Of a stretch of DNA of 34,977 nt, positions 3,934 through 25,945 are shown piece by piece. The position numbers and the translations under genes were made by a program. The notes beneath the pieces were generated by a model. It worked only from the letters and a program-made list of their open reading frames with translations. It made no database searches and was not told the DNA's origin. Numbering within the stretch: the first letter of the stretch is position 1; each line of letters starts with the position of its first letter. The DNA lies in NCBI GenBank assembly GCA_026989655.1, contig JALSIX010000003.1, forward strand, positions 1 to 34,977, written 5' to 3'. This stretch comes from Caldilineaceae bacterium (GTDB lineage: Bacteria > Chloroflexota > Anaerolineae > Caldilineales > Caldilineaceae).

Positions 3934-4905
3934 ATGGACTTGCGCAAGAGCTTTTCCCTCAGCCTCGGGATCGTCCTGGGCCTCGGTCTCCTCTTTCTGG
4001 CCCTCGCGGGCACGGCTCTGGCCCAGGGCATGATGCCACCCGGCAGCCCCCCCATGCCGGGCATGCCCGGTGGCATGATGGGGCCCGGTCCTGGATATCC
4101 TGGAAACCAGGGCTACACCGACACCGTGCCCTTCGCCCCAGGCTTCGGCTACGGCATGATGGGACCCGGTATGGGCATGATGGGCATGGGACCCGGCATG
4201 ATGGGCTTCGGCTACGGCATGGGCCCGGGCATGATGGCCGGCCAGGGCTACACCGACACCGCGCCCTTCGCCCCAGGCTTCGGCTACGGCATGATGGGAC
4301 CCGGTATGGGCATGATGGGCATGGGACCCGGCATGATGGGGATGATGGGCATGGGGGAGCCTGAGCTCCTGGGTCTGCCGGTGTTGAGCATTCCCGAGGC
4401 CCGGGAGGCTGTGGAAGGATACCTGGAGCGCCTCGCTGTCCTGGGGCTCCCCGCAGAGGCGTTCACCATCGGGGAGGTCATGGTCTTCGACAACCAGGCC
4501 TACGTCCAGGTGTTGGAGAAGGAGACCGGGCGCGGTGCCTTTGAGCTCCTGGTGGAGCCCCGGACCCGCTGGGTGATGCCCGAGCCCGGGCCCAACATGA
4601 TGTGGAACCTGAAGTACAGCCCCATGGCCCGGATGATGGGATGGTCCTTCGGCCAAGAAGGCCTGCTCGCGGAGATGCCCATCGACCAGGAGGCCGCCCT
4701 GCGGATCGCCCAGGCCTACGCGGCCCGGGTGCTCAACGGCGCCCAGGTGGCCCCGGAGCTCACCGCGTTCTACGGCTACTACACCGTGGATGTGCTGCGA
4801 GACGGAAAGCCCGTGGGCATGCTGAGCGTCAACGGCTACACCGGCCAGGTCTTCGTGCACCACTGGCACGGCGATTTCGTGGCCATGGGCGAGGCCGAGG
4901 AGTGA
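3934..4905 (+). CDS. Exported Met/Gly-rich protein with PepSY-like C-terminal region
   Basis: 323 residues. A signal peptide (1-30, ending ALA) is followed by a Met/Gly/Pro-rich segment (about 32-141) built on MGMMGMGPGMM-type strings, then a folded region (about 143-323). The folded part contains two PepSY-like repeats, one with PEPGPNMMWN and one with NGYTGQVFVHHWHGDF. I recall the same segments in uncharacterised periplasmic proteins of other bacteria, but know no assigned function. Met-rich strings commonly bind Cu(I), and the gene lies between a multicopper oxidase and the cytochrome oxidase operon, so periplasmic copper holding or delivery is the leading guess. The start is fixed by AAGGAGG seven bases before ATG. 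The Met-rich part contains a recent internal duplication (separate entry). A hairpin at 4945-4980 follows. Confidence 0.85.
   Translation: MDLRKSFSLSLGIVLGLGLLFLALAGTALAQGMMPPGSPPMPGMPGGMMGPGPGYPGNQGYTDTVPFAPGFGYGMMGPGMGMMGMGPGMMGFGYGMGPGMMAGQGYTDTAPFAPGFGYGMMGPGMGMMGMGPGMMGMMGMGEPELLGLPVLSIPEAREAVEGYLERLAVLGLPAEAFTIGEVMVFDNQAYVQVLEKETGRGAFELLVEPRTRWVMPEPGPNMMWNLKYSPMARMMGWSFGQEGLLAEMPIDQEAALRIAQAYAARVLNGAQVAPELTAFYGYYTVDVLRDGKPVGMLSVNGYTGQVFVHHWHGDFVAMGEAEE
4108..4341 (+). repeat. In-frame 99-bp direct repeat inside the Met-rich gene
   Basis: Codons 59-91 (4108-4206) and 104-136 (4243-4341) encode the same 33-residue unit QGYTDT[VA]PFAPGFGYGMM and so on. By eye the two 99-bp copies differ at two bases only, one giving Val to Ala and one silent. 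They are offset by 135 bp. The near identity points to a recent duplication or gene conversion that lengthened the putative metal-binding segment. Confidence 0.9.
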
Positions 4906-21782: not shown

Positions 21783-21816
21783 AGAGGCCCGGAACGGTTT
21801 TCCGTTCCGGGCCTCT
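21783..21816. terminator. Perfect 15-bp hairpin between convergent transcripts
   Basis: AGAGGCCCGGAACGG (21783-21797), loop TTTT, and its exact complement (21802-21816) lie between the sdhB stop and the stop of the minus-strand NHLP-like gene. It probably ends both transcripts. A partly T-rich stretch (CGTTGTCTCG) follows on the plus strand. Confidence 0.8.
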
Positions 21817-22198: not shown

Positions 22199-22372
22199 TC
22201 ACCCGCCCCAGCCACTGGGCGCTGAAGGGGTCCGACCGCCCCAACCACTGGGTGCCGAGGGGGTCCGCCCCCCCCAACCGCTGGGCGCCGAGGGAGTTCG
22301 GCCCCCCCAACCACTGGGTCCCGAAGGGGTCCGACCGCCCCAACCGCTGGGTCCTGAGGGTGTCCGTGCCAT
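22199..22372 (-). CDS. 57-residue peptide of five RTPS[GA]PSGWGG repeats
   Basis: The peptide is Met-Ala followed by five copies of an 11-residue unit, RTPSGPSGWGG twice and RTPSAPSGWGG three times, and nothing else. AAAGGAGG lies seven bases before the ATG, one of the best ribosome binding sites in the window. The 33-bp units differ at many third codon positions, yet the only amino-acid change among units is Gly/Ala at position 5, so selection acts on the peptide. It has no signal peptide, Cys or membrane segment. Each unit ends in Gly-Gly, the cleavage site used by double-glycine peptidases. It lies downstream of the STAND/SARP regulator and three bases before the NHLP-like gene. A multi-copy precursor of a secreted or modified peptide is the leading idea; a structural or metal-binding role is possible. 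Function is unknown. Confidence 0.82.
   Translation of the reverse strand: MARTPSGPSGWGGRTPSGPSGWGGRTPSAPSGWGGRTPSAPSGWGGRTPSAPSGWGG
22202..22366 (-). repeat. Five tandem 33-bp coding repeats
   Basis: Five exact 33-bp periods without spacers encode the undecapeptide units described for the overlapping gene. Units share the invariant codons CCC (Pro6) and TGG (Trp9) and differ at third positions of Arg, Thr, Pro, Ser and Gly codons. The lack of spacers and the coding bias exclude a CRISPR array. Confidence 0.93.
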
Positions 22373-22411
22373 GGCTCTGCCTCCTTTGATGCTCGAACCG
22401 GGATGATGGGA

Positions 22412-22417
22412 GATATA
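22412..22417 (-). promoter_or_regulatory. Possible -10 box for the repeat-peptide gene
   Basis: The 240 bases between the regulator stop and the peptide start hold TATATC on the minus strand, about 40 bases before the ATG. The best hexamer 17 bases upstream is CTGGAT, a poor -35, so the promoter may need an activator such as the adjacent SARP protein. A TTGACT further upstream (near 22480) has no good -10. Nothing else was recognised in this gap. Confidence 0.25.
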
Positions 22418-22612
22418 GGCCGATGCGTGCAATGATCCAGGACACACCAACCCTGTGATCTGCACCACGTTCTCCAGTCAAGCACCGACCGGGCTGGGTA
22501 GGGGGCTGGGCAGCAGGCTGGGTGGCGGGGGAAGACGTCGAAAGGTCCAGGGGAAACGGGCGAATCCGGGAATGGAGCTCGGGAGGCCCGCTCCAGGGGA
22601 AGGGGAAATGGA

Positions 22613-25600
22613 CTACGAGCCGTTCTGGGCCGGGACGTTGCCCAGGAGCTCGAGGAGGAGCTGATCCGTCTGGGGGGAAGGGGCCACGTCCATCTCCTGG
22701 CGGAGGGTGGCCCGGCAGGTCTCGTACTGCCGGATGATCTGCGCGCGGTTGCCCCGGGCCGCATGGACCCGCATGGCCAGCCGGTGGGCGCTCTCCAGGC
22801 ACGGATCCATCTGGAGAAGCGAGTGGCTGCGGATCAGTGCTTCGCTGTAGCGGCCCTGGGCCAGGTAGAGCTCGGCCAGCTCCAGGCTGCCGTCGATGTA
22901 GAGCTGTCGGAGTTCCTCCCGCCGGGCATGGATCCAGGGGGCCTGGCCCTCCTCCAGGTAGTCGCCGGTGTAGTGGCGCAGGGCCTCTTCGTAGGCTCCC
23001 CGGATCGCCTCAGGCTCCGTGGCCTTCCGTGCCGCCTCCAAGTGGTGGAGGAACTCCTCCACATCGTAGAGATATTCCAGGTCCCGGTTGAAGCGATAGA
23101 TGCCCTCCTCGTAGGTCACCACCTCGGGGAACAGCGCATGGCGCAGCCGGTAGAGGGCGTTCTTGACCCGGATATGGACCTCCTCCGGCGAGGCATCCGG
23201 CCAGAACAGGGCGCCGATCTGTTCTCGGGTGAGGCCCTGGGGGTGTTCGAGCAGGCAGAAGAGGAGCTCCCGGGCCACCGCGCTCTGCCAGGCGCTGGGC
23301 TCCACCGGGCGCTCCTCCAACAGCACCGCCCCCCGGCCGAAGGCCCGCAGCACCAGGGGCGGTGAGATCCGGAAAGGGGTCTCGGTCCACTCGTCCAACA
23401 GCCGGCGGACCTCCTGCTGGAGCACCGGCCGTTGGCGGGTCCAGAGCTCGGCATCCCGCAGGAACCGCCGGAGATAGTGGGAGGCGCCGCTGCGATGGCC
23501 CAGGACCTGGAGGGGGCGGCTCACCTGGGTGACCGTGGGCATGAGCGCGTGCCAGGACTCCAGCCGGGCGGCCAGGCTCACGGCCTGGCGGGCCTCCTCC
23601 ATGGCCTCGGGTTCCTGGCCCAACTGGTGGCGGGTGACGGCCAGCAGGATGCGGGCCCGCGCTTCCTCCACCGCATTGTCCGTCTGGGCCAACATCGCGG
23701 TGGCCTGGGCCAGGGCCGGAAGGGCCTCTTCCGCGCGGGCATCCAACAGGTAGTGGCTGCCCACCACCAGGTAGTAGAGACCGTATTCGAAGGCGGAGGG
23801 ATGTCGGGCCAGGAGCTGGCGGGCCGCTTCCAGGTAGCGCTCCCGGCTGGTGGGGTCGCTCCGCTGCAGTCGGGCCAGGGCAAGATGGGTGTAGAGGACC
23901 AGGTAGCGGTCTCCTACCTGTTCGGCCTGTTGCCGGGCACGGAGGTAGTAGGCCACGGCCCAGCTCTCCAGGCCCACGTCGCAGCAGATGTCCGCGAGGC
24001 TGGCCCGCACGTAGGCCTCCATGCGGCCGTCCTGGATGGAGCGGGCCAGCTGGAGAGCCCGGAGGAGATGCTGGACCGCCACCGAATAATCGCCGAGCAG
24101 GCTGTGGAGGACTCCCAGGTCGTTGTGGACCGTGGACTGGAGCATCAGGTTGCCCAGCGCGGAGGCATGGGCCAGGGCCTGCTCGAAGATGGCCTGGGCA
24201 TTGCGGTAGCGTCCGGCCGCGAGCCATGTGGAGCCCAGGTCCTTCTCCACCCGAGCCTGGTTGGTCCGGTCCTCGGCCGCGGTATAGTTGCGCAGGGCAC
24301 GCTGCAGGTGCTCCGCGGCCTGGTCCAGCCGTCCGAGGAAGTGGTGGCTGAGGCCCAGCAGCCGTTGTGCCTCGGCCACCACCCGGGTCTGCTCCCGGAG
24401 GGCCGCCAGGTGCTCCTGGGCGTCGGCGTGGGGATGGAGCCGCTCCGTGTCCTCCCCGTGGAGATGCTCCAGGGCGCGCTGGGCATCGTGGATGGCCTCG
24501 GTATGGCGTCCCTGGTAGTGGTGGAGCATGGCCCGCCGGACCAGGCCTCGGGCCAGTTGCTCGGCCGATCCCTGCTGTTCCAGCCGATGGACAGCCTCGT
24601 CCATCAGGGCCAGGGCGATGTCGGGCCGCCCCTCCTGGGCCTCCAGCACCCCCCGCAGGGAGAGCAGGATGGGGTCCTGGCCCACCCGTTCGGCCGGCAG
24701 ATGGGAGAGCCATTCCCCCAGAAGGCCGAAACGGTGCTCGGCCACCAGCCAGGTGCCCAACTGGGCGATGAGCCGGGCCATGGCCTCGGTGTCCTCCAAC
24801 AGGCGCAGGCAGCGGAACACCTCGTTCCACTGGGCCCGCTCCTGGTGGTAGGCCATCCGACGCCGGAGCAGGGTCTCCCACCGTTCCGGATCCGAGCGAC
24901 GCAGGGTCTCCTGCAGGAACTCCTGGAAGAGGTGGCTGTAGCGGAAATCCACCTCCTGGTGCACCGTCTCCACCACGAAGAGGTGCCGCTGGCGCACCTC
25001 GCTCAACAGAGCCCGCCAGTCCGTGTCCTCCGGGTAGAGGGGCCCCAGGACATGGGCACAGATCTCCGGGCTCAGGAAGTCCAACACGGAGGAGTCCAGC
25101 AGGAATCTCTGCATGGGCGCCGGCTGGGGGTCCAGGACCTGTTCCCGGAGGTAGACGGCCAGGGCATTGGGGTGCTGGGGGCCGCTCAAGAGGGGGGCAT
25201 GGCTCTCTCCCAGGGGCCGGGAGGAGAGCAACAAACCGGTGATCCAGCCGTCCGTTCGTTCGGCCAGGGCCTGGGCCTCCTCCAGGGTCAGGTGCAGGCC
25301 ATGGCTGCGCCGCAGGACCTCCCGGATCTCCTCGGGCTGGAAGCGGAGGTCCTCGGTGCCCAGGCCGGCGGTCAGCCCCCGGGCCACCAGGAGCACCTGG
25401 TCTGGCAGCCGCAGGAGCCGCCGGGAGAGGAGCGCGACCTGGACCTGCTCCCCGCTGACCAGGATGAACCGGCTGAGAAAGGCGCCGATACCGGGGTGGT
25501 CGTCGACGAAATGGGCGTCGTCCACCACCAGCAGGAAGTGCTCGTGCACATGGTGGTGGAGCTCGTGGGCCAGGAGCGCGGCCAGTTGATGGGCAGAGAG

Positions 25601-25945
25601 GCCGAAACGGACCAGCCCCTGCGCGTCGCTCAGGGCGGAGCGGCGCAGTTGGGGAAAGGCCTGGAGCAGGGTCGCAGCGATGTAGCGGAAGAAGAGGCCC
25701 AGGTCCCGATCGCCGGGGTCCGCGGTGAACCAGCATACGGGCAACTCCACCTGGTTGGCCAGCTCCGCGACCAGGGAGGTCTTGCCGTAGCCCGCGGGCG
25801 CGATGACCTGGATCAGCTTGTAGTCCAGAAGCGCATACAGGCGGCGCAGGAGGCGTGGGCGGCTCACAAAGTGGGCCCGATGGGCGGGGAGGGCGATCTT
25901 GCCTGGCAGGATCGGTGGTTCGTAGGGCGAGGGCTCGTGCGTCAT
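22613..25945 (-). CDS. STAND ATPase / TPR / SARP (BTAD) transcriptional regulator
   Basis: 1110 residues. The N-terminus is a MalT-like STAND ATPase with Walker A APAGYGKTS (49-57) and Walker B LLVVDDAH (138-145). A long helical TPR region follows (about 400-850, repeats such as GDYSVAVQHLLRALQLA). The C-terminus has an OmpR-type winged helix (about 860-960, ending RVKNALYRLRHALFPE) and a bacterial transcriptional activation domain (about 960-1105, YTGDYLEEGQAPW, ELAELYLAQGRYSEALIRSHSLLQMDP). Such regulators wait for a ligand or partner, oligomerise through the ATPase and activate transcription. The nearest downstream genes on the same strand are the repeat peptide and the NHLP-like protein, so these are likely targets or ligands. 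The ribosome binding site is weak (GTGAGATCC). Confidence 0.92.
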   Translation of the reverse strand: MTHEPSPYEPPILPGKIALPAHRAHFVSRPRLLRRLYALLDYKLIQVIAPAGYGKTSLVAELANQVELPVCWFTADPGDRDLGLFFRYIAATLLQAFPQLRRSALSDAQGLVRFGLSAHQLAALLAHELHHHVHEHFLLVVDDAHFVDDHPGIGAFLSRFILVSGEQVQVALLSRRLLRLPDQVLLVARGLTAGLGTEDLRFQPEEIREVLRRSHGLHLTLEEAQALAERTDGWITGLLLSSRPLGESHAPLLSGPQHPNALAVYLREQVLDPQPAPMQRFLLDSSVLDFLSPEICAHVLGPLYPEDTDWRALLSEVRQRHLFVVETVHQEVDFRYSHLFQEFLQETLRRSDPERWETLLRRRMAYHQERAQWNEVFRCLRLLEDTEAMARLIAQLGTWLVAEHRFGLLGEWLSHLPAERVGQDPILLSLRGVLEAQEGRPDIALALMDEAVHRLEQQGSAEQLARGLVRRAMLHHYQGRHTEAIHDAQRALEHLHGEDTERLHPHADAQEHLAALREQTRVVAEAQRLLGLSHHFLGRLDQAAEHLQRALRNYTAAEDRTNQARVEKDLGSTWLAAGRYRNAQAIFEQALAHASALGNLMLQSTVHNDLGVLHSLLGDYSVAVQHLLRALQLARSIQDGRMEAYVRASLADICCDVGLESWAVAYYLRARQQAEQVGDRYLVLYTHLALARLQRSDPTSRERYLEAARQLLARHPSAFEYGLYYLVVGSHYLLDARAEEALPALAQATAMLAQTDNAVEEARARILLAVTRHQLGQEPEAMEEARQAVSLAARLESWHALMPTVTQVSRPLQVLGHRSGASHYLRRFLRDAELWTRQRPVLQQEVRRLLDEWTETPFRISPPLVLRAFGRGAVLLEERPVEPSAWQSAVARELLFCLLEHPQGLTREQIGALFWPDASPEEVHIRVKNALYRLRHALFPEVVTYEEGIYRFNRDLEYLYDVEEFLHHLEAARKATEPEAIRGAYEEALRHYTGDYLEEGQAPWIHARREELRQLYIDGSLELAELYLAQGRYSEALIRSHSLLQMDPCLESAHRLAMRVHAARGNRAQIIRQYETCRATLRQEMDVAPSPQTDQLLLELLGNVPAQNGS

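Follow-up and report, generated by a model that had tools for sequence, protein, structure and literature searches.

Organization of the locus and the repeat-encoding gene

The locus examined lies on a whole contig of 34,977 nucleotides from a Caldilineaceae bacterium (GenBank assembly GCA_026989655.1, contig JALSIX010000003.1), referred to below as the window, and comprises a small operon on the minus strand with a large regulatory gene, a gene for a repeat peptide designated P0001 and a gene for an Os1348/NHLP-clan-like protein designated P0002. P0001 is encoded on the minus strand from 22372 to 22199, and its 57-residue product, MARTPSGPSGWGGRTPSGPSGWGGRTPSAPSGWGGRTPSAPSGWGGRTPSAPSGWGG, consists of Met-Ala followed by five 11-residue units RTPS[G/A]PSGWGG without any hydrophobic segment. 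The ribosome binding site AAAGGAGG is located at 22387-22380, 7 nt upstream of the ATG. The earlier note, which described this peptide and its silent differences but gave no strand, was correct in its observation, which was confirmed in full, while the plus-strand translation of the same interval contains stops. Tandem Repeats Finder recovered the array with a period of 33, 5.0 copies and 82% matches.

Comparison of the five units, a measurement that the earlier note had named as a check on selection, revealed that 10 of 33 columns vary, of which nine are third codon positions, and that the only replacement is Gly/Ala at position 5 (Gly in units 1-2 and Ala in units 3-5). Over the 10 unit pairs 53 silent and 6 replacement differences were counted, corresponding to pS of 0.55 and pN of 0.026, and of 12 distinct changes from the consensus only one is a replacement, as compared to 7.4 expected (P 5e-5). 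One caveat not seen in the earlier note is that the antisense frame whose third positions coincide (PPQPLG[A/P]EGVR) is equally conserved; however, its only start codons lie beyond the repeat, hence it was rejected as the coding frame. The reading of P0001 as a translated peptide under purifying selection is therefore sound. The alternative that a non-coding GC-rich minisatellite is read by chance as a peptide rests on the tandem 33-bp array and is very unlikely, given the silent-biased divergence, the presence of a ribosome binding site and ATG, the conserved gene position and the same pattern in seven repeat genes described below.

The P0002 gene (21851-22195, minus strand, 114 amino acids) begins with its start codon 3 nt after the P0001 stop. 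P0002 matches NF038399 with E 1.5e-7 at 31.4 bits, which is below the curated cut-off of 40, and Pfam PF14407 with E 1.3e-4, and hence is a divergent relative of the Os1348/NHLP clan. Its structural model overlaps the Os1348 structure 6LK7 only weakly (Z 4.3, 54 residues aligned, rmsd 3.3), and Foldseek itself gave no match with E under 1, which leaves the assignment of the Os1348 fold undecided, while a PDB sequence search with the Os1348-like profile yielded no hit. Upstream of P0001, at 22613-25945 on the minus strand, is the gene for a 1110-amino-acid MalT-type STAND ATPase-TPR-BTAD (SARP) regulator (Pfam TPR 2e-21, BTAD 5e-21, MalT model 3.6e-50), which over its full length is 35-38% identical to the regulators at most of the homologous loci of the same family. 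Downstream, a perfect hairpin AGAGGCCCGGAACGG-TTTT-CCGTTCCGGGCCTCT at 21783-21816 was read directly in the sequence, without use of a folding program, and is a likely bidirectional terminator between the operon and the convergent sdhB. The other window ORFs scanned encode ordinary metabolic, respiratory and sensor functions (succinate dehydrogenase, cytochrome oxidase, UbiA, galT, histidine kinase). Short tandem repeats of 21 and 30 bp are also present at 4141-4355, in a Gly/Met-rich stretch of an ORF without a Pfam match (3934-4905).

A family of small helix-tail peptides at the same position

P0001 itself does not reach any Pfam or NCBIfam model, with only a sub-threshold low-complexity match (Mucin-like, 17.8 bits against a cut-off of 28.7). 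The search for small genes with related tandem units, which the earlier note had put forward as a test, was performed as a nucleotide-pattern scan of 84,980 species for two PxG[WY]GG units 11 amino acids apart and returned 83 stretches, mostly in Gly-rich proteins and none the same gene. A protein search with P0001 within the order gave only chance-level low-complexity matches, and a search for related loci with P0002 returned nothing. However, homologues of P0002 were found in 11 other genomes of the order, whose neighbourhoods share one operon, composed of the regulator, one or two genes for 35-48-residue peptides with a single helix and a tail ending like ..LSAGAPRGYGG, the gene for the membrane protein DUF5317 and the Os1348-like gene. 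DUF5317 occurs in exactly these 11 genomes and is missing from the genome of the window, in which neither DUF5317 nor a helix-form peptide was detected, although the empty search with the 37-residue peptide is weak by itself.

A profile built from the Os1348-like proteins extended this set to 88 of 396 genomes of the class and 85 of 152 genomes of the family of G369 (G and L numbers denote genomes and loci of this survey), with a few hits elsewhere in the phylum. Of 132 loci read in all, the window and 131 further ones, about 106 carry between the SARP and Os1348-like genes one to three genes for a 30-56-residue peptide with a basic N-terminus, one hydrophobic helix and a short Gly/Pro-rich tail after a GAP-like motif, usually followed by DUF5317, seven carry a repeat peptide and 19 no recognised one. 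Genes were called with our own script, due to which these counts are approximate, and an apparent repeat at L115 was an artefact of masked N bases and was removed. Neither the helix-tail peptides nor the repeat forms reach a Pfam or NCBIfam model, and no paper on the peptide family or the operon was found in the open-access literature, subscription literature not having been searched. Some lineages (L117, L128, L124, L126 and L150) have peptides with Cys-containing tails (GGCC, SSGCC, CGQIRC, CASC), a possible subfamily with different tail chemistry, and at several loci of the window's family (L053, L061) a sensor histidine kinase-like gene follows the Os1348-like gene.

P0001 lies exactly where the helix-tail peptide lies in relatives, on the same strand, and its unit ends in APSGWGG against APRGYGG in the tails of its own family, a score reached by only 0.0002 of shuffled units. 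It differs by the absence of the hydrophobic helix, since its maximum 17-residue hydropathy is -0.74, against a median of 2.5 for the helical relatives, and hence it is put forward as a derived variant and not as a typical member.

Independent loss of the helix with multiplication of the tail

A parallel was observed in a distant genus, labelled g104, in which six species carry repeat peptides at this position without the helix: G369 (RRSPSDGGVGG x3), G424 (RRSPADASTTG x5), G416 and G419 (RRSPADGCTGG x3), G418 (RRSPSDGGSST, five units with divergent ends) and G422 (RMPADGGGGGRR x3). A seventh species, G417 (L271), has a soluble single-unit form, MNNNFSRLLDNLNRRTPSDGGGGGH. Congeners have the helix form with a tail such as APSDGGGGPF and share the N-terminal start and similar upstream sequence. 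Differences between units are mostly silent in all seven repeat genes, that of the window included, and only L279 of G418, whose two end units have diverged, shows many replacements. A tree of the Os1348-like proteins places the window inside the helix-form relatives of its family and the g104 forms elsewhere, and at least two separate origins are forced by well-supported branches, although the fine branching is unsure as only 101 columns were used. Copy number also rises by whole-gene duplication, since in at least 11 loci (L302 of G431, L055, L057, L060, L061, L136, L140, L144, L147, L305 and L308) the helix-tail peptide gene is itself present in two or three near-identical tandem copies, a second route to higher tail dosage. 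An unrelated small ORF, MADEERTPDGYGGFKELTPDGYGGYKELTPDGYGGHK.., with 11-residue ELTPDGYGGxK units was found in a Planctomycetota MAG (L161, minus strand 537-652) and represents another repeat peptide of unknown kind.

The interpretation given in the earlier note was partly supported. Purifying selection on the peptide, the proximity to a SARP regulator and the lack of any described family with this unit, as judged by the Pfam and NCBIfam models and the pattern scan, all held. However, cleavage after each Gly-Gly, proposed in the note to release copies of the undecapeptide, was not supported and is disfavoured, because the homologous repeat peptides end their units in TTG or SST as well as GG, while arginine at the unit junction is constant, and because the genome has no C39 double-glycine peptidase (PF03412 is absent from this assembly, which is 99% complete in 150 contigs, and present in 8 of 14 control genomes). 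The note also missed that the gene is the repeat form of a wide small-peptide family, that an Os1348-like gene follows at once and that the same repeat-making happened independently elsewhere. Lack of conservation of the unit in orthologues had been set in advance as a ground for giving up the reading, and this condition is literally fulfilled, since the unit sequence differs between lineages; yet it does not refute the reading, as architecture, gene position and within-gene purifying selection are conserved.

A SARP-operator-like repeat upstream of the peptide gene

In 67 of 99 upstream regions, the 240 bp before the peptide gene hold an exact 7-mer repeated at 12 bp, as compared to 0-7 at most other spacings (16 at 11 bp and 14 at 24 bp, the double of 12) and to 2 of 85 and 7 of 84 in control regions. 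A typical example is TTTTGAAGCCTG present twice, 67-88 nt before the ATG. Related loci share sequence, hence these are not 67 independent events, but the motif differs between lineages while the spacing stays. The window contains CCCAGCC three times, 12 bp apart, at 22492-22522 on the minus strand, 120-150 nt upstream of the P0001 ATG; on its own this array is only suggestive (P 0.008 by shuffling) and lies further upstream than most. A search of the genome of the window for CCCAGCC pairs gave eight matches, of which the two in the window form the only triple, and the rest were not followed. The gap between the regulator and the peptide gene (22373-22612) also holds TTGACT and TATATC promoter-like words, which were not tested. 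SARP-LAL regulators such as PimR, which likewise join a large ATP-binding part to a SARP DNA-binding part, bind three heptamer direct repeats in the target promoter (PMC5930380), although with 11-bp instead of 12-bp spacing, whereas here the target is a small-peptide gene and the domain order is reversed, with BTAD at the C-terminus. It is inferred that the adjacent regulator controls the peptide gene.

Possible functions of the tail

Sequence comparison shows the conserved position of the peptide gene, the loss of the helix with three- to fivefold multiplication of the tail in the window's lineage and separately in g104, the purifying selection on the encoded tail and the frequent 12-bp-spaced heptamer repeat, the kind of operator SARPs bind. 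From these it is inferred, and not demonstrated, that the tail is the active part, that in the ordinary form it is displayed outside or released at the end of the helix, and that in the repeat form several copies are made as one soluble chain and probably cut at the arginine that starts every unit. The leading proposal, held only tentatively, is that the tail is a ligand of the TPR domain of the adjacent regulator, which would then activate the peptide gene and P0002 through the repeat operator, in a positive feedback loop built like Gram-positive peptide quorum sensing but with a SARP. There are no expression, processing, secretion or binding data, export, processing and binding being untested, nothing yet ties peptide sequence to regulator specificity, and the repeat form has no export signal by hydropathy, which does not suit a secreted signal unless another route exists. 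The absence of DUF5317 from this genome also counts against this proposal. A wider reading, in which STAND-TPR-SARP regulators sense short Gly/Pro-rich tail peptides in cell-cell signalling and lineages have repeatedly turned a membrane-anchored single-copy precursor into a soluble multi-copy precursor, is possible but unlikely.

In RRNPPA quorum sensing, exemplified by Rap-Phr with tandemly duplicated propeptides (PMC11343458), a TPR-domain regulator is likewise encoded next to a short peptide, the signal sits at the C-terminal tail, and some propeptides hold more than one copy and need several cuts. However, the regulator described here has 1110 amino acids and lies outside the 250-500 residues quoted for such receptors (PMC10075063), being a STAND-TPR-SARP and not a Rap/Rgg type, the repeat forms lack a signal sequence and consist almost wholly of units, and no pheromone, import or binding has been shown.

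The main rival, though an unlikely one, is a multi-core natural-product precursor, in which the tails would be core peptides that are modified and released as antimicrobial or other natural products, with the Os1348-like protein as leader-like or carrier partner. This finds support in the placement of P0002 near the NHLP/Os1348 group, whose founder, Os1348 of Pseudomonas sp. Os17, is tied to antibiotic activity (PMC7726476), in the common control of natural-product clusters by SARPs, in the variation of tails between lineages, and in the resemblance of tandem cores under silent-only divergence to multi-core microviridin precursors (PMC5934393). On the other hand, P0001 is not homologous to Os1348, and the modification-like enzymes and efflux pump of the Os17 cluster are absent here, as far as the window ORFs were scanned. 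No modification enzyme, peptidase or dedicated transporter turned up among the window ORFs scanned, which did not include every small ORF, and none was recognised between the regulator and the Os1348-like gene at the homologous loci. The missing C39 peptidase likewise speaks against it, and tails are mostly Gly, Pro, Ser and Asp, with Cys in only some lineages. Multi-core RiPP precursors and fungal Kex2-processed repeat proteins (PMC7329392) share with the forms described here one chain carrying several near-identical short units, with dibasic RR junctions in the g104 forms, but here no leader peptide and no modifying enzyme were found and the system is bacterial.

Another unlikely alternative is an intracellular structural or regulatory peptide, in which the uncut repeat would bind P0002 or the regulator directly in the cytosol, the repeats giving avidity, with the helix form doing the same job at the membrane. 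The lack of any helix or export signal in the repeat forms, the 3-nt distance between P0001 and P0002, suggesting coupled translation, and the absence of DUF5317 from the operon in g104 as well are in favour of it, but it does not explain why every unit is kept complete with an Arg or Arg-Arg junction, and binding data are lacking here too. A role of P0001 as a leader or coupling ORF, translated only to control P0002 by Trp-codon attenuation or translational coupling, could be suggested by its five Trp codons and the 3-nt gap, but is very improbable, since homologous repeat peptides lack Trp, selection acts on all residues, and the distance between the genes is 80-100 nt in g104 and over 600 nt where DUF5317 intervenes.

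These results bring to light a widespread small-peptide family, with about 106 loci in one survey, that is tied by gene order and a conserved operator-like repeat to a TPR-SARP regulator whose inducer is unknown. The recurrent loss of the helix with multiplication of the tail, by which the ligand question for this class of SARP regulators becomes directly testable with synthetic 7-11-residue peptides, works as a natural experiment that points to the tail as the functional part, perhaps a peptide signal.
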